From positions 62,141,760 through 62,205,759 of the forward strand of contig CM057005.1 of assembly GCA_029891345.1 (NCBI GenBank): 64,000 bases of DNA, read 5' to 3'. The stretch's first letter is position 1, and every line of letters begins with the position of its first letter. The translations under genes and the position numbers were made by a program. Of this stretch, positions 41,172 to 48,589 are shown in pieces. The notes below the pieces were generated by a model that was not told the origin of the DNA, ran no database searches, and worked only from the letters and a program-made list of their open reading frames with translations. This DNA is from Dryococelus australis. Taxonomy: Eukaryota; Arthropoda; Insecta; Phasmatodea; Phasmatidae.

Positions 41172-41912
41172 TATATGTGTAACACGTATTTCATGATGAT
41201 TCTGAAAAGAAGGAAAAAAGGCGCACCGTGTGTGAATGTGACAGTATATATCGAAATTTCAGGAACCAAACATTGAAGGATTTTCAATTTCTGCTGAAGT
41301 AATGAAAATGTGTGGTTTTTTTTTCCCCCCCGCTAAATAAATGTCCTCTTGTCCTCTGCGGTGTCCACGTCCGTTTCATCTATTCTGGAGCGATTCGCCG
41401 ATAACATTTGTTCACGTCTCTATCTCGGAAACTGCGTCCCTCTCCCAGGGATGTATTTCGTGCTTCACCGAAACTTCGGGCTGATATTGCTGATCCATTT
41501 CTCCGGCATGAAATACTGTCGATACGATAAAACGTATTATCAGGTAGTTTTTGCTGTTGACTTCCGCAATAGAGCTGATGGGATGTCAGCTACCGATGTT
41601 GGCGTCTCAAATCAATTTTACCAACCAAGCAGAGCTCTCTGTGGGGTTTCTGTAAAGAGCAAATTAATGAAATTTATGTGAAATACACCTACTTTAATAG
41701 GAACACGTTGATAATGGCAACAAATTACTAAAATGAAATGAAATTATACGTATTTTATGAATAACTTCATTAAGGATTTTCGTTGACGGTAAAAATACAA
41801 AGCAATTCTGCGCATATCCTGCAAGTCCAAAAAAAGGTTTATTTTCTACATAAAACAGTAACTTATAAGTAGTTCCAAATCTTCAGTGCAATGAATACAA
41901 TGAGATCAATTA
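41172..41912. other. Unassigned stretch with one 110-codon open frame
   Basis: An open frame on the plus strand at 41,349-41,681 has no motif I recognise. It may be chance or an exon. A T/C run precedes it (41,313-41,331). Confidence 0.3.
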
Positions 41913-42214
41913 TAGGCTATGCATGGCAAAATGAACACTTTTGAAAGCCCTGCTTAAGATCTACTTGTATAAGAGTTCTGTATCGTTCCACTTTATGTAA
42001 AATGAATATTGCCATGGAACTAATCACTTTATTCATGAGTCGGTCAAATGAAACTGTGAAATTATTAAGAAAGTAAATACTTTAAAAATCAGCTCAATTT
42101 TACATATCGATGCATTAAAAAAAACAGAAAGCGAAATATATAATTTAAGTTATCACAAATGGTTACTTAACACTTTATTCGAAGTTAAGATATGGAACTT
42201 CTTTCCATCCGTGG

Positions 42215-42253
42215 CACAGTGGGCTGGATCCAACCATCATAGTGACAAAAATC
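42215..42253 (+). promoter_or_regulatory. Left terminal recombination-signal-like sequence
   Basis: The heptamer CACAGTG (42,215-42,221) is identical to the vertebrate RSS consensus. The spacer at 42,222-42,244 is exactly 23 bp. The nonamer ACAAAAATC (42,245-42,253) matches ACAAAAACC at 8 of 9 positions. It is the presumed transposase binding and cleavage site. Confidence 0.85.
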
Positions 42254-43312
42254 CAAAAATATAACATTTTAATTTTGGACTGAAATAATTACATCTTCTA
42301 CGGGATGTATACTAACTAAGAGATAAATATTTTTAATTTTGGTGAATTAGTAAACTCACGGTGTTTACGAAAAGTTACTAATTTGTGGAGAGTCATGCCA
42401 CACTAGGATTTATCGCCAATTTTCTTTCTTTCACATTAGAGTTTAGCTATTTGTGGAAGTTGCGGTAAATTTATCTTTAGTATTTTCAAAAACTACATTG
42501 AATTCAACATAAAACCGCATTTTAAAATTTAGTAATTTATTAAAAATAAAGTAGGAATAAATTATTTAGAAACACTGTCTTTTTTTCCTTACATTTCGAT
42601 GTAAATCAAGTTGTACAATTCGAGGATTACCTAGGCTCACGGAGATTCGCAGCTTATACTGTAGATAAAATATCAGAGACTCAAGGGATGTAGCGTTTGG
42701 TTGTGTCAAATTGCGGCTTTGGGGTAGAGATCAAATTTAAGTAGGATGCTACGACAGGCTCGTGTGCCAATGCGACAGCGAGAACTCCCACGTATTGATC
42801 AGTAGGCCTACATTTTTGTAAACACCTTTGTATCCCTCGGACGTGCCTGCAGGCGGAGAAACATTTCCGGTGAGTCGGGACCCATTACATGTAAGGCTAC
42901 GAGAGCTGTCGCATTCAGGTTGAAACCTTAGCTTGATCAGTATCAGGCAGTCAGTGTCTACGTCGCGAGGGAAGAGCAACAACAGTCTGTCGAGTGCACT
43001 CGCTCTTTGGCTGTAATTGTGGATGTATCATTTCCGGTGATTAGCCTTCTGTTTATTTTTCTTCTCACTCATATTTATCGTAGTTAAACTTAATAATTGA
43101 ATAATTAGTAATATTGGTATCCTCTAAAAAACTCATAAAAAACGTTCCGCTATAATTTCAAGAATTTTAATAATATCTACGTAACTCCACAATTAAAACG
43201 TTCACTAAATTACATGTGTATGGTGTTCCCAGATTACTACATTTAGTACCTCGGTTTTCATTTTACAGGTATCAAAATGGTAACTAGAAGACATTATAAT
43301 TAATTCAAGTGA

Positions 43313-45342
43313 CTTTGACGAATTCTATGCCCGTGCTTTGGAAAATTATGGTTTACATGAGCACAAAGACTCACTGAAGTCAAAGTTGAAAACGTCTATT
43401 AAAATGTTGTATTAAGGTGGAAAAAATCTTGTCGCGATCGGAAAACATTAGAACGGAAGTATTCTGAATGGTTTGATAACGTTGTGAATTTTCCTGAACA
43501 CGCGGTTTCAATCCCTGGACAGAGTGAAGCAAAAAAAGAAACACCGAACAAACGTGGTCGGCCACAAAAATCGTACAGTGAGGCGAGCGAGCGGACCAAA
43601 AAAAAAAAAAGGATCATGAAACGTGCATCCGACGCTGTTACTACTCTTGAAGCAATCACAGTTTTCTCTTCTCGCCCAAGAGGTAAAAGCAACTGGACTG
43701 GAGTATCGGCAGTAAAACTTGTGGCAGGCAGTACACCAATATCTTCAAAAAACATACTTGAGAAATTACTGACAGCAACACATGAAAAAGCATGCGTTCC
43801 TTATTCTCCCTAAGAAGCATTGTCTCTACTAATTGAATCCAGATTGTCGAAGCAATCACACAATTTAATCAGACTGGCATCAAAGATGCGAAATGCGGAT
43901 ATTTACCCCACCTATTCGAATTTGGTCGAAGCGAAGAAGTTGTGCTATACAGGCAATATCCAGTGCTCAGAAATTGGTTGTGAGGTTCCATTGCAAAATT
44001 TACGTTATCACGAATGTTACAGATATTGGACAATCAACTTAAAGGTGAATTTACATTGCTTTGTAAGTGAGGTTTCGATGGCTCATCTGGGCAGTCTCCA
44101 CACAAGCAGGCCTGGGAAGAGAATACGGAGCCTAGTAACGAAAGTATTTTTCTTCGTTCTTTAGTCCCACTTGTTTTAAAAGTGAAAGATGGTGATGTGT
44201 GGAATAATCCTGGACCGAGCTCCACTCGTTTTTGTCAGCCCATACGGCTCCAGTTCGTTAAAGAGTCAAGAAAGGTTATTAACAAAGAAGAGGATTACAG
44301 CCAAAGTCAAATTAACCATTTATGTAATTTCCAGAGAGAAGGATTGCAAATAAAATATAATATGCTACTGACAATGATTGATGGTAAAGTCCTCTGTGCC
44401 TTGATTGACACCGCTACATTGCAGTGTCAGATTTGTAAGCAGACTGCGAAAGGCCCTTCTTCGTGGACAGTTTCAAAGCCCATAAACGAAGACGCCCTTA
44501 AATATGGAATATCATCGCTGCATGCCTACATCAGATTTTGGAAATCATTCTGGTGATTTCCTACAGATTAGGTTGGTATTAAAATAGTGTTATGAGGGAT
44601 TATGACTTTTGTGGGTGCGACATTCCGACTTGACAATTTTTTGTAGGCTCTGAATCAAAAAGGCGTGGCGACAAAAATGATCCCGAGGTCCGTCAGCGCA
44701 AGGAGGTGGTTTTACAGGACTTGAAGCTATTAATGCACATTAATCCCGATCGCCCAAGACAAGGATTTGACTCCACGACTGACGGTAACTCTGCACGAAG
44801 GTTTTTCTTATGATCCAGCTACAGCATGCAAAGCAACAGGAGTTGACCAGAAAATGATAAAAATGTTTTCTGTCATATTATTGGTTCTGGCTAGTGGTCA
44901 CGAGTTCAGTACTAACAAATTTGATTCTTATTGTGAAAGAACTTTGTTGTACTATAAGAAACTGTACAGTTGTTATAAGCTAATACCGACTTTGCATAAA
45001 GTATTAGAGCATAGTGTAATTATCATGAATCATTGTCTTTTGCCAATGGGCCAGTTGTCTGAAGAGGCTGAGGAAGCAAGAAATTAAGATGTCAGAAATT
45101 ATCGCGAGTTCTTCTGCCGGAAATCAAGTGGAAATGTAAATCTCAGTGATTTGTTTTGTCGGCTTTTATTATCATCAGATGAAGTAATTTCATCTGTGCA
45201 CAAATTACCGACAAAGATTGTTCGGGAACTTTACCCTGAAATTAGAAGCGAATTGGAATATGTACTCATTTCTGATGAATCCGTAGTTGACAGTGAATAT
45301 GACGACAAAAATGGCATGGCAGACAGCGACGAGGACTCATAG
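43313..45342 (+). pseudogene. Transib transposase (RAG1-core-like), decayed
   Basis: Pieced over two main frames. The N-terminal part is a basic RGRPQKS-type segment and EALSLLIESRLSKQSHNLIR. The first catalytic Asp lies in GFDGSSGQS (44,077-44,079). Then come VWNNPGPSSTRFCQPIRLQF and the second Asp in TMIDGKVLC (44,380-44,382), with a CQIC zinc pair after it. LHAYIRF follows, then a zinc-type pair of histidines in LHKVLEH (44,995 and 45,010) and the third acidic residue in GQLSEEAEEARN (45,061-45,063). The HKxLxH pair followed by SE matches the layout of the RAG1 C-terminal core. In-frame stops occur at 43,811, 44,068, 44,554 and 45,085, with frameshifts near 43,420, 44,040 and between 44,556 and 44,767. 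The protein tail is acidic (DSEYDDK, DSDEDS). All three catalytic residues survive, so decay is moderate. The start is not identified. Confidence 0.85.
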
Positions 45343-48180
45343 TCTGGAAGAGTTTTTTAATTATCGTGTGGATATTTTTCTCTTTTTATATGCCTATTAC
45401 TTTAATGTTTGTATCACAATTATAACCTCACGCAATGGAACATGTATGAATGTCAATACATGTTCATAAGCAGTTGAATACAAAGTTTGACATTTTTTAC
45501 TTGTGCCTCATACAAAACGGATTTAGATTTAAATTATTTATGTAAAAATAATTAATATGTATGTCACATGTCAAAACAAATATATAAGTTGTTAAATGGA
45601 ATATTAATAGCTCGTTTGTTTAATATACACATAAAAAATTAATAAATTGTAAAATAATATATTAAATAATAAATATAGAAAGTAAAATATAATGACGAGA
45701 AAAGGGAACCCTATTGACGAATTCTTGCGGTGCACATCATGTAACCCGCAACTCTGAAGGGTTTTCTGGAAATTCTGTATTATTTTTTTATCGGTTACTA
45801 GATGATGTGATGATAACTGTGATATTCACACAGTTTCCAAGGTGTAAATGGGCCTCCACGTTGGGAAAGCAACTCCTTTACTTGTAAATGTTCTCACAGT
45901 GTGTAAGAGTAAATATTGGTGAGGTGTTAATGCAAGCTGTATGTACAGTACCCCAACTAACTTTACAACCGGAAAACACATACAATTTGAAAATTTATAA
46001 GTGGTGGTGTAAATTATTTTGAGTGCCCAGAGAAAATAAATGACTATGGCAAAATAAACTAAATCAACTTTTCGCGGACCCTAGAACCTTGGCGCCAGGC
46101 GCCTAGTACTAAGAATTGCCTTAGGATTAAGACGGTGCAAAATCTCGTACTTTCCTGAACTGAGTAGATAAATTAATTGCCATCTTAGCAACATCAATAA
46201 AATTCAAATAATGTTGTGACATTTCCAGCAAAATCTTTCTGGGAATTTTCCGAGTAAGTATTCCAATAAGATATTTTTTTCGTGCAAAACATGTAATACA
46301 CTTAGGCCAACATGCTACAAGAAGCTAAATCAGAGCAAAATATGTGGAAACCCCCCTTTTTACTCAAATCAACACATTTTAAACACTGGCATAGCATTTT
46401 TCAGACAATCGACAAGGAGTTCAAACACTTCAGGAAAAAAATTATTTGTATATATCACTTCATAGCACTTTAGAACAAGACATTATCAGAAGACACAATA
46501 TAGCACTTTCATTAAAAATAACATAGACAACACATGAAATCAGAACATATTCAATCAACTCGTAGCAACAAGATAATTCACCAAACGCATCGAACAAAAC
46601 CTTTACAAGTGAGAAACACAAGGACGCATCAGATATAGAAATCGCTTTCAGAGAAAATTACACTACAGCATACATAGGTTCTTAAACCTTCAAAATATAA
46701 TTTAGGAGACAAAATAAGAAAACTCTACTACAGTAAAACTGGTTTGAGTAGGGATAACTCTTAAATATCTTTGGGTGTGAGAATTTTTATGCTGGGCTTG
46801 CAGTAATAACTGCTAAAAATAATATTTCATTATCAAGCAATTCATCACTCAAATTGGAAAAGAAAACTATCTCATCCAACAGCAATCAATAAAATGAAAA
46901 TTACGTAATTTAATGAGATCAAACAAATTACTCTCCGATTAGTTCTTAGAGTGTGGCCTTCTAGGGTAAATTGATATTGGCACTCAAAATAAAGTTTATA
47001 TGCAATCACATTAAGAGGGCATCCAAGATACATCTTCCAATTAAAATGGGTCACTTCCAGAACCCATCTCAGATTCAACTCGGTAAGATTTATTTCAAAA
47101 CTCACTCATTAACATCCGCAACATTGCGGATGCAAATAGATGAACCCATCTGCCTTACTGCAGTCATACATGTCGTCAAACCACCGAGTCTCCCTGTCGC
47201 AGGTGATGCCGTCGGCTCTAGTTCCCGCATATATCACACCTCAAAATACTGGAATTAACTCGCCTGTAGAAGCAGGAAATCCAGGTCGCCTAATACAAAC
47301 TCAGTATCCAGAAACATAATTGACAAGGAACCATGTGCGATGTCACGACCCATCCTCGACGAAACTCTCGGGCATCTAAATACGACGTCCTCGCGGTTTT
47401 CATGGCTACTGACAGAAGAAGGGCGAATTAAGGGCCTACACACCCACGCCAAGCATGAATGCGGAAGTTCCAAACCTCATTGTTATCAGCTCAGCCGAGA
47501 TTGGCTGGTAACAATAAAGTTTGAGTTCGCCTCCCTTCATACCGAAACAACGTGCAGGACACGTTCCTATATTCCATATTGACAATAATCACACGTCAAA
47601 ATCGATCGTTAAAATTACAGACATAATACTGTCGGCTCATGGAATAGAATGTCACCACAGGTAAGCATTACGTCTTAAATTACGTGAATACATTGAAAAT
47701 AAGGATAAATGTGTTCATTCAAATCAGTTATGCACACGAGTGGACAAATTAACCTTTAAATATGTCGTTCAATGTAAAAACAATAACAAGTTCGTGTTGG
47801 TAAACACACCGCTCAGTGTCTATTCTCAACAAAATATAGTATTTTTTTTAGTTCCAGTGTCAATATAAGCATAATGTCACGTTTGGTGTATTTTGCAGAC
47901 AAAATTTAAAGTAAATAAATCTGACTGTAAATAACTTTACATGAGGTTTCTGCAGTGCAAAGCACTACAATGGTAACATTAATTTTTTTTATATCCTTCC
48001 GTGAAGGTGTGACAAATTGCACGAAGATCACCTATGTTATTTTCAAATCCCACCCACTTCCCCACAAATTCCAACCCTTTTAGAATTTACTCCAAATTGC
48101 GAATTCAATTGGTTTTTATTCACATGATATATAAGTGTGTCAAATATGAAGTAGGTGTTGCAATTAGGAGAGTCAGGAAG
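45343..48180. other. Non-coding right arm of the Transib element
   Basis: About 2.8 kb between the transposase and the right end. It contains only short open frames on both strands near 46,870-47,580, with no recognised domain. The block 47,130-47,580 is GC-richer than its surroundings and may be a captured or nested sequence. I find no second pair of inverted repeats to prove that. Confidence 0.45.
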
Positions 48181-48219
48181 GATTTTTGGCACTATGAAGA
48201 GTGAATCCAGCCCACTGTG
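48181..48219 (-). promoter_or_regulatory. Right terminal recombination-signal-like sequence
   Basis: Read on the minus strand: heptamer CACAGTG (48,213-48,219), 23-bp spacer (48,190-48,212), nonamer CCAAAAATC (48,181-48,189), 7 of 9 matches to the RSS consensus. The spacer is 19/23 identical to the left one. Both ends are therefore of the 23 type. Confidence 0.85.
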
Positions 48220-48589
48220 AGTCGTTACCAAATTTACTGTGCGAATTTCACTCAGTGGGCTCATTAAAATATATGTATGCAGGAGCAGTTCATTTCAAAA
48301 GTGCTTACTTTATCGTGAACAGCCTTTATCATATGTTACGTACAATCGAAAGTAGCTGTCCTTCAGAAAATTTTACAGCTTCTAAATATGTGACTTTAAC
48401 TTACAAGCATATCGTTACATGTTGCTGGACTGCGTCGCTTCTCTTCCCCCGCCCCACTCGAACTGCCGAAACAGTGTGCTGAGAATAGAGCAATAATGCG
48501 AGAAGCAAGCGGTGATTTGCAAAGGCGATCCGCTGCGTGTACAAGTAATGTAAGCCTATCGGGACTCGGGCGCTCTTTACCTTCAGTGG

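Follow-up and report, generated by a model that had tools for sequence, protein, structure and literature searches.

In the 64,000-nucleotide stretch of Dryococelus australis DNA that was analysed (the window), positions 42215-48219 are bounded by inverted copies of CACAGTG, each followed by 23 bp and an A-rich nonamer (Table 1). The left end (42215-42253) reads CACAGTG, 23 bp and ACAAAAATC, and the right end, read on the minus strand (48219-48181), CACAGTG, 23 bp and CCAAAAATC. A second heptamer-like motif, CATAGTG, lies inside the left spacer (42238-42244). No inverted repeat in the region is longer than the one formed by these two termini (40 nt, 88%). They enclose the remains of a Transib transposase, and the element, 6,005 bp long with a nested insertion included, is almost certainly a Transib DNA transposon of the cut-and-paste type in fossil form, which we assign to a family named A.

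Table 1. Features of the Transib copy and its surroundings (window coordinates).
Feature	Position	Strand	Basis
Host dispersed repeat, left part	41901..42209		Transib inserted into it
Left target-site duplication CGTGG, one base off CGTCG	42210..42214	+	Sequence, flank comparison, empty paralogous sites
Transib copy (family A), dead, with nested insertion	42215..48219	+	Ends common to relatives; transposase remnant
Left heptamer CACAGTG	42215..42221	+	Sequence, pattern scan, relatives' ends
Left 23-bp spacer	42222..42244	+	Sequence, relatives' ends
Left nonamer ACAAAAATC (family CCAAAAATC)	42245..42253	+	Sequence, relatives' ends
Second A-rich block, left ends only: CAAAAATA here, family A GAAAAATC	42254..42261	+	Family A, B and C left ends
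Transposase remnant, at least five open pieces	43403..45342	+	HzTransib matches
Nested repeat, other family	45818..47969		Missing from 16 relatives; copies elsewhere
Right nonamer CCAAAAATC	48181..48189	-	Sequence, pattern scan, relatives' ends
Right 23-bp spacer	48190..48212	-	Sequence, relatives' ends
Right heptamer CACAGTG	48213..48219	-	Sequence, pattern scan, relatives' ends
Right target-site duplication AGTCG, one base off CGTCG	48220..48224	+	Sequence, flank comparison, empty paralogous sites
Host dispersed repeat, right part	48225..48330		Same host repeat as 41901..42209

The best PDB match of the transposase remnant is HzTransib (E=1.3e-24 and 6.3e-15). Only pieces 3 and 4 match it individually, and pieces 2 and 5 gave no PDB match. 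The three catalytic positions are kept (D at 44077-44079, D at 44380-44382 and E at 45073-45075) and align to D126, D225 and E436 of HzTransib, numbered as in PMC6941560, with the surrounding frames broken in this copy. A profile made from the joined window protein and 14 relatives matched HzTransib at 7.2e-183, RAG1L at 1.4e-13 and RAG1 at 6.7e-10 and weaker, and one relative (P0031, from Osmia) lies above the Pfam RAG1 cut-off. An N-terminal profile gave no match to any solved structure up to E=10, the RAG1 nonamer-binding domain included.

A loose scan of the window for the pattern of a recombination signal sequence (RSS), allowing up to 3 mismatches, gave six matches against 2.0 expected, with as many in one of 100 shuffles, so just the two best of the six count. 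The four weaker matches at other places lend something to the view that both CACAGTG-23-nonamer matches are coincidental and that the real termini lie elsewhere. However, the relatives terminate at the same places, the termini are adjoined by CGNCG and 5-bp duplications, and empty paralogous sites exist, which leaves this view with next to no probability. CACAGTG-N24-CAAAAATC with at most one mismatch, a pattern chosen post hoc after the ends had been seen, has two occurrences in the window where 0.02 would be expected, a number that none of 100 shuffles reached. A chance match as the source of the ends is thereby ruled out by the shuffles together with the relatives' ends.

We read 40 left and 47 right family A ends in the same genome, and they give the same borders as those first proposed. 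CACAGTG is intact in 27 of the left and 36 of the right ends and has the majority base at every heptamer position, which upholds its identity (7/7) with the V(D)J consensus. The heptamer, the spacer length and the A-richness of the nonamer are features of the family and not of one copy. The consensus nonamer is CCAAAAATC, 7/9 to the RSS nonamer; its first base is A in only 3/40 left and 1/47 right ends and C in 28 and 42, respectively. The near-consensus left nonamer ACAAAAATC to which the preliminary description had drawn attention is present in the window, but it is largely peculiar to this one copy.

That copies agree in heptamer and nonamer was considered as proof of function and rejected, the decay rates being similar (nonamer 0.05-0.07, heptamer 0.05-0.06, spacer 0.02-0.06). 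Since the nonamer decays as fast as the heptamer and the spacer, agreement between copies reflects common descent, and comparisons of 5' with 3' ends and between families were therefore used instead. Of 19 rows, 18 diverge from the majority sequence by 4.9-6.8% and the remaining one, L035, by 13.1%; the longest open frame among the 21 copies read has 246 aa. The family A copies are one burst that has decayed since.

An exact CGNCG adjoins 22/40 left and 24/47 right ends. Paired flanks agree at 5/5 in nine of 29 copies and at 4/5 or better in 18, compared with 8% and 42% of mismatched pairs; the excess at 4/5 is modest because the targets resemble one another. In 12 of 15 empty paralogous sites, read by eye, exactly five bases are absent. 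Family A thus has a 5-bp target duplication with a preference for CGNCG, although the window's own pair has decayed (CGTGG and AGTCG are equal at 3/5). Homology to Transib transposases, inverted CAC-starting ends with an RSS-like heptamer and, at the level of the family, the 5-bp duplication are all present. Another copy, L022, is inserted at the same site of the same host repeat as the window copy, and a further one, L030, lies at this site in the opposite orientation, as seen from its right flank only. The window copy and L022 are unlikely to stem from a single insertion, because neither has a shorter branch than the other copies and because L030 is opposite at the same site.

The element had been described as one of 6 kb, which has to be corrected. 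Lengths were measured for 16 relatives with both ends: about 3.46-3.88 kb in 14 of them, and 2.8 and 3.1 kb in the other two (in four of 20 relatives, taken as 10-kb pieces, the right end was not recognised). The window copy is 6.0 kb rather than about 3.8 kb because a foreign repeat of about 2.15 kb is nested in its 3' part. This repeat is missing from the 16 relatives (15 junctions displayed) and has other copies elsewhere in the genome. Its left border is 45807 or 45818, the latter giving 8-bp flanks ATGATAAC and ATGGTAAC.

About 2.15 kb without any match to a transposase lie between the coding remnant and the right end, and this stretch is also where a RAGL (ProtoRAG-like) transposon could have lost or concealed its RAG2L gene. 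We consider this highly improbable, as the stretch is a separate repeat of another family, and a RAG2L gene within the extra 2.2 kb was rejected. Relatives of about 3.8 kb leave only about 0.7 kb past the transposase, too short for a RAG2-like partner; judged from their length and from the nested repeat, the element has a single gene and not the convergent RAG1L and RAG2L genes of RAGL elements. The transposase is moreover much closer to HzTransib than to RAG1L in the profile, the heptamer is CACAGTG against CACTATG in ProtoRAG, and the spacers are 23/23 against 27/31.

What the nonamer means in this Transib can be approached by comparing ends. In family A, the 5' and 3' consensus sequences are identical at 35/39 positions within the terminal repeat and at 7/45 beyond it; the match is 3/7 at positions 16-22 (mid-spacer), complete at 23-39, and ends at 39. 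Two further Transib families of this genome, B and C, were compared with it. Family B, whose catalytic stretch is only 42-46% identical to that of A, likewise shows 7-23-9 at either end, with a nonamer CAAAAAATC that is 6/9 to the RSS nonamer. Its consensus ends are equal over 40 bp and diverge from position 41. Between A and B, the nonamer has changed at 1/9 positions and the spacer at 6-8/23. The left end of family C keeps CACAGTG, but positions 31-39 are only 3/9 to the RSS and hold no nonamer, so that the heptamer is common to the three families and the 23-bp nonamer is not; calling the ends textbook 23-type was an overstatement, given also the 6/9 of family B. An A-rich block is found instead at positions 40-47 of the family C left end, equal to that of family A at 8/8, and among the left ends of A, B and C this block, directly inside the nonamer, agrees at 7-8/8. 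The 22-base family C left-end pattern gave 83 matches (control pattern, 4), but no inverted pair within 10 kb, by eye, that would mark its right end. The ends of L090, a 51%-identical copy, were not found within 5.2 kb.

It is possible, though on balance unlikely, that only the heptamer is functional and that the nonamer at 23 bp is a chance A-rich stretch, the outer 15 bp or so and A-richness being sufficient. The family C left end and the decay of the family A nonamer at the rate of its surroundings point this way, as do the HzTransib ends, described in a 2019 paper (PMC8289069) as having an RSS heptamer and hardly any, if any, nonamer similarity. Against it stand the full 5'/3' similarity of family A up to position 39 after a low in mid-spacer, the equality of the family B ends over 40 bp, and the greater agreement of A and B in the nonamer than in the spacer.

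From established Transib biochemistry, a live DDE transposase would pair the two symmetric 39-bp repeats, cleave precisely outside CACAGTG leaving hairpins on the flanks, and join the element into a CGNCG pentamer, whose duplication was observed. The outer CACAGTG block would likely determine where cleavage falls, and a second contact would likely be made at the CCAAAAATC block 23 bp inward, perhaps by the N-terminal GRP-containing region that one paper treats as the counterpart of the RAG1 nonamer-binding domain. We are tempted to suggest, as a tentative and rather doubtful reading of the sequences, that the A and B ends may be functional equivalents of the 23-RSS, bipartite and with the nonamer as inner border, the left 40-47 block telling the two ends apart. 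If this holds, vertebrate RAG could cut family A and B ends paired with a 12-RSS, and the 40-47 block, distinguishing ends without a difference in spacer length, could represent a step before 12/23 asymmetry. These families bear on the origin of the bipartite RSS: the A and B repeats are 7-23-9, stopping at the nonamer or one base past it, the C left end shares with them only the heptamer and an A-rich block lying further in, and together they form a natural substrate set for asking which RSS parts predate vertebrates. The observation in the preliminary description is confirmed and its interpretation partly supported, the collected copies and their consensus upholding both borders, the heptamer and an A-rich nonamer.

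With ProtoRAG and RAGL elements the copy shares a RAG1-like DDE enzyme, CAC ends and a 5-bp duplication. In the comparison with ProtoRAG ends proposed earlier, heptamer and spacers differ as given above; GCCATCTTG and the RAG2L gene of ProtoRAG are further differences. At positions 8-10, where protostome RAGL ends carry AAA, the window element has GGC. To the 23-RSS of jawed vertebrates the likeness is 7/7 in the heptamer, 23 bp in the spacer and 7/9 in the nonamer of the family A consensus, which has CACAGTG, 23 bp and a ACAAAAACC-like nonamer. The element differs in being mobile, dead and without RAG2, and there is no 12/23 pairing because both ends are 23-type. The likeness goes back to the common ancestry of Transib and RAG1, and nothing in the evidence examined points to a V(D)J-like role in this host.

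With the Transib superfamily (HzTransib; Drosophila hopper and Transib2) the copy has in common the core of the transposase, the DDE positions, RSS-like ends that start with CAC, and the 5-bp duplication. RSS-like ends, reportedly noted for Transib by Kapitonov and Jurka in 2005, and CGNCG targets are already published, and the window copy is a further Transib member. The target of Transib is given as CGNCG in PMC4735498, and that of Drosophila hopper and transib2 as CCANTGG instead in PMC3276498. Transibs have been reported in bacteria (PMC9435367); our pattern-based search of viral and prokaryotic contigs, which diverged relatives could escape, confirmed none. In PMC8355894, Transib ends are described with symmetric 20-22-bp spacers or as 12/23 pairs. 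By such published descriptions, the element is set apart from described Transibs by an exact CACAGTG followed, at the same 23-bp distance in either end, by an A-rich nonamer.

Together the ends of the Transib element (Table) form the region's longest inverted repeat (40 nt, 88%). A scan of the window for the end pattern with up to three mismatches gave six matches against 2.0 expected, and is little informative since 1 of 100 shuffles also reached six. The pattern CACAGTG-N24-CAAAAATC, picked post hoc with the ends already known, has exactly two matches with at most one mismatch in the 64 kb, which are both ends; its mean in shuffles was 0.02 and none of 100 shuffles gave two.

Table. Features of the Transib element and its surroundings in the window
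Feature	Position	Strand	Description
Host repeat of the insertion	41901-42209 + 48225-48330		dispersed, abundant, ~415 bp
Left end	42215-42253	plus	CACAGTG-23-ACAAAAATC
Right end	48219-48181	minus	CACAGTG-23-CCAAAAATC
Second heptamer-like motif	42238-42244, 48190-48196		CATAGTG
Transposase remnant	43403-45342		five open pieces
Aligned to HzTransib D126	44077-44079		D
Aligned to HzTransib D225	44380-44382		D
Probable intron	~44590-44648		GT...AG, after YRLG
Aligned to HzTransib E436	45073-45075		E
Nested repeat	45818-47969		~2.15 kb; left border 45807 or 45818

Searches of the genome (3.4 Gb, 646 contigs) with the left end (40 matches scored among 88 candidates) and the right end (40 among 110) identified the family of the window copy, here family A, of which 40 left ends (window and 39 relatives) and 47 right ends were read; the right end was unrecognised in 4 of 20 relatives taken as 10-kb pieces. 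The consensus sequences are CACAGTG-GGCTGGATCCAACCATCATAGTG-CCAAAAATC (left) and CACAGTG-GGCTGGATTCACTCTTCATAGTG-CCAAAAATC (right). The preliminary description of both termini as 23-type recombination signals (RSSs) is thus borne out by the family, with the 7-23-9 layout in both consensuses and CACAGTG exact in 27/40 left and 36/47 right ends. These heptamer and nonamer counts include all rows; the per-position table excludes those with indels or exchanged repeats (five left, three right). The vertebrate RSS nonamer is given as ACAAAAACC in PMC8289069. The near-consensus left nonamer noted earlier is a property of the window copy, which matches it at 8/9 positions, but not of the family, which matches at 7/9: the first base is A in only 3/40 left ends, window included, and 1/47 right ends, and C in 28/40 and 42/47.

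In both family A ends a second heptamer-like motif (6/7 to CACAGTG) adjoins the nonamer. In three copies a spacer of one end's type is found at the opposite end while the sequence further in stays as it was: at both ends in L024 and in the single copy represented by L043 and L089, and at the right end in L067. This exchange is compatible with gene conversion or with recombination of one inverted repeat with the other. L024, with its ends exchanged, retains a perfect CGACG duplication.

The element had been described as 6 kb long, which is not the length of the family: the 16 two-ended relatives measure ~2.8-3.9 kb (14 of them 3.46-3.88 kb) and the window copy exceeds them by a single block of 2.16 kb. 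Sixteen of 20 relatives align straight over the insertion place without this block (15 junctions printed) and the other four give no clean crossing. The last 150 bases of the block gave 40 scored matches among 97 candidates, 35 of which extend to its final base, 47969, and its first 154 bases gave 42 matches, many covering the inner half only. The block is therefore a repeat in its own right. With the left border at 45818 it is flanked by the 8-bp sequences ATGATAAC and ATGGTAAC, a possible target duplication. Without the block, the ~0.7 kb remaining 3' of the transposase is too short for a RAG2L gene as in RAGL (ProtoRAG) transposons.

In single-piece searches of PDB, which covered four of the five transposase pieces (all but 43403-43813), piece 44071-44556 returned only the characterised transposase HzTransib at E<=1 (E=1.3e-24), and piece 44734-45087 returned HzTransib at 6.3e-15 with two other sequences at E~0.6. 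Pieces 43814-44164 and 45088-45342 had no match at E<=1 and E<=10, respectively, and none of the five pieces reached the cut-off in a Pfam scan. Joined as one protein, the pieces found 60 proteins among 7,997 scored candidates, the closest 62% identical across 65% of the query. A profile of 15 sequences (the joined protein and 14 of the 60) matched HzTransib at 7.2e-183 and RAG1L (6b40) at 1.4e-13; RAG1 chains followed, with E=6.7e-10 and weaker. The Pfam RAG1 family was above cut-off in one of six scanned relatives (P0031, Osmia), below it in P0012 and without match in four. The catalytic residues of HzTransib are reported in the review PMC6941560 as D126, D225 and E436; all three align to the same residues in the window when a uniform shift of 17 is applied to the HzTransib chain positions.

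The predicted proteins of the relatives P0001 and P0004 likewise stop at the place of the probable intron after YRLG. A stretch of P0052 (Periplaneta americana), whose listed name cites a reverse transcriptase domain, is 42% identical to the window transposase and is perhaps a chimeric gene model. Several relatives, including P0006, P0007, P0010 and P0031, bear the precomputed Pfam label PF26100, which our own scan of P0007 and P0031 did not return.

All 21 copies read as long stretches have broken frames, and none could encode the whole enzyme, as no open frame in them exceeds 246 aa. Beyond these copies, open frames reach 388 aa round a family A match and 405 aa at L093, a match of another family. 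Divergence from the majority sequence (K2P) is 4.9-6.8% in 18 of 19 aligned rows (13.1% in L035) and the tree is star-like; the family A copies represent one burst, long over.

Insertion is accompanied by a 5-bp target duplication. As read from the alignments, empty paralogous places have exactly five bases fewer than the joined flanks in 12 of 15 cases (4, 4 and 6 in the others). The 5-bp flanks are identical in 9/29 two-ended copies and equal at four or more positions in 18/29, against 8% and 42% in mismatched copy pairs, the latter excess being modest because the targets resemble one another. CGNCG lies immediately outside 22/40 left and 24/47 right ends. Flank disagreements in at least three copies (L029, L030, L033) resemble one-base indels at the border. 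The window flanks, CGTGG and AGTCG, agree at 3/5 positions and each is one base off CGTCG. Five of the 17 flank-compared copies (16 relatives and the window) lie in the host repeat, namely the window copy, L022, L030, L032 and L040. The same pentamer of this repeat was hit by the window copy, L022 and L030 (reverse orientation; right flank only), and is likely to be an insertion hot spot.

Family A, with seven left and six right rows set aside (indels or exchange), shows substitution rates of 0.05-0.06 for the heptamer, 0.05-0.07 for the nonamer and 0.02-0.06 for the spacer, and of 0.04-0.09 directly internal to the ends. With rates so alike, conservation between copies cannot be taken as a sign of function. 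The two ends set against each other, and above all other families, are more telling on whether the nonamer is real. The left and right consensuses are equal at 35/39 terminal positions (counted from CACAGTG), with the four differences all within positions 16-22, and at 7/45 further in.

The value of the element lies in the comparison that it permits between families. A protein search of the genome (150 scored among 989 candidates) listed matches of 37-84% identity, with no clean gap because broken family A copies also score low, and four low ones were fetched. L090 (51%) yielded no ends. L091 (46%) and L092 (42%) define family B, of which 22 left and 22 right ends were read (20 of 40 listed matches per side plus these two). 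Its ends are alike over 40 positions, CACAGTG-GGCCGGATCGAATAATCATGGGG-CAAAAAATC-C, and diverge from 41. The heptamer is exact in 14/22 left and 11/22 right ends, and CGNCG adjoins 11/22 and 7/22. The final two nonamer positions are weak (left 11/22 and 15/22, right 14/22 and 16/22) because the A-run varies in length. Families A and B agree at 7/7 heptamer, 8/9 nonamer and 15-17/23 spacer positions; the family B nonamer matches the RSS at 6/9. At the place of CATAGTG family B has CATGGGG. L093 (37%) defines family C, for which 18 left ends were read (from 24 matches, L093 included); a search with a 22-base pattern from its left end found no right end. CACAGTG is exact in 13/18 and CGNCG present in 13/18; CAGAAAGTA occupies positions 31-39 (3/9 to RSS), followed by GAAAAATC at 40-47. 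This A-rich 40-47 block, CAAAAATA in the window, is common to the left ends of all three families (7-8/8 equal) and absent from the right ends of A and B.

By analogy with HzTransib and RAG, the transposase would pair the two ends, nick and then form a hairpin on the flanking DNA, and join the element to a 5-bp target. The block at 31-39 might be contacted by an N-terminal domain. The N-terminal parts of nine relatives share an invariant GRP motif, which the window has as well, and PMC9435367 equates this part with the RAG1 nonamer-binding domain. An N-terminal profile search among solved structures found no such RAG1 domain, and the HzTransib profile match starts downstream of the GRP part.

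No description of families A, B or C was found by title or abstract in the small set of Transib papers searched, Repbase being outside this search. CGNCG is reported as the Transib target (PMC4735498), and CCANTGG as that of two Drosophila families (PMC3276498). Similarity of Transib ends to RSSs is stated in PMC6941560, heptamer and nonamer being identical in some of them but the spacers various, and the ends of HzTransib are described as showing little nonamer similarity (PMC8289069). The spacers reported for Transib are symmetric, of 20-22 bp, or form 12/23 pairs (PMC8355894), whereas families A and B have a 23-bp spacer at both ends.
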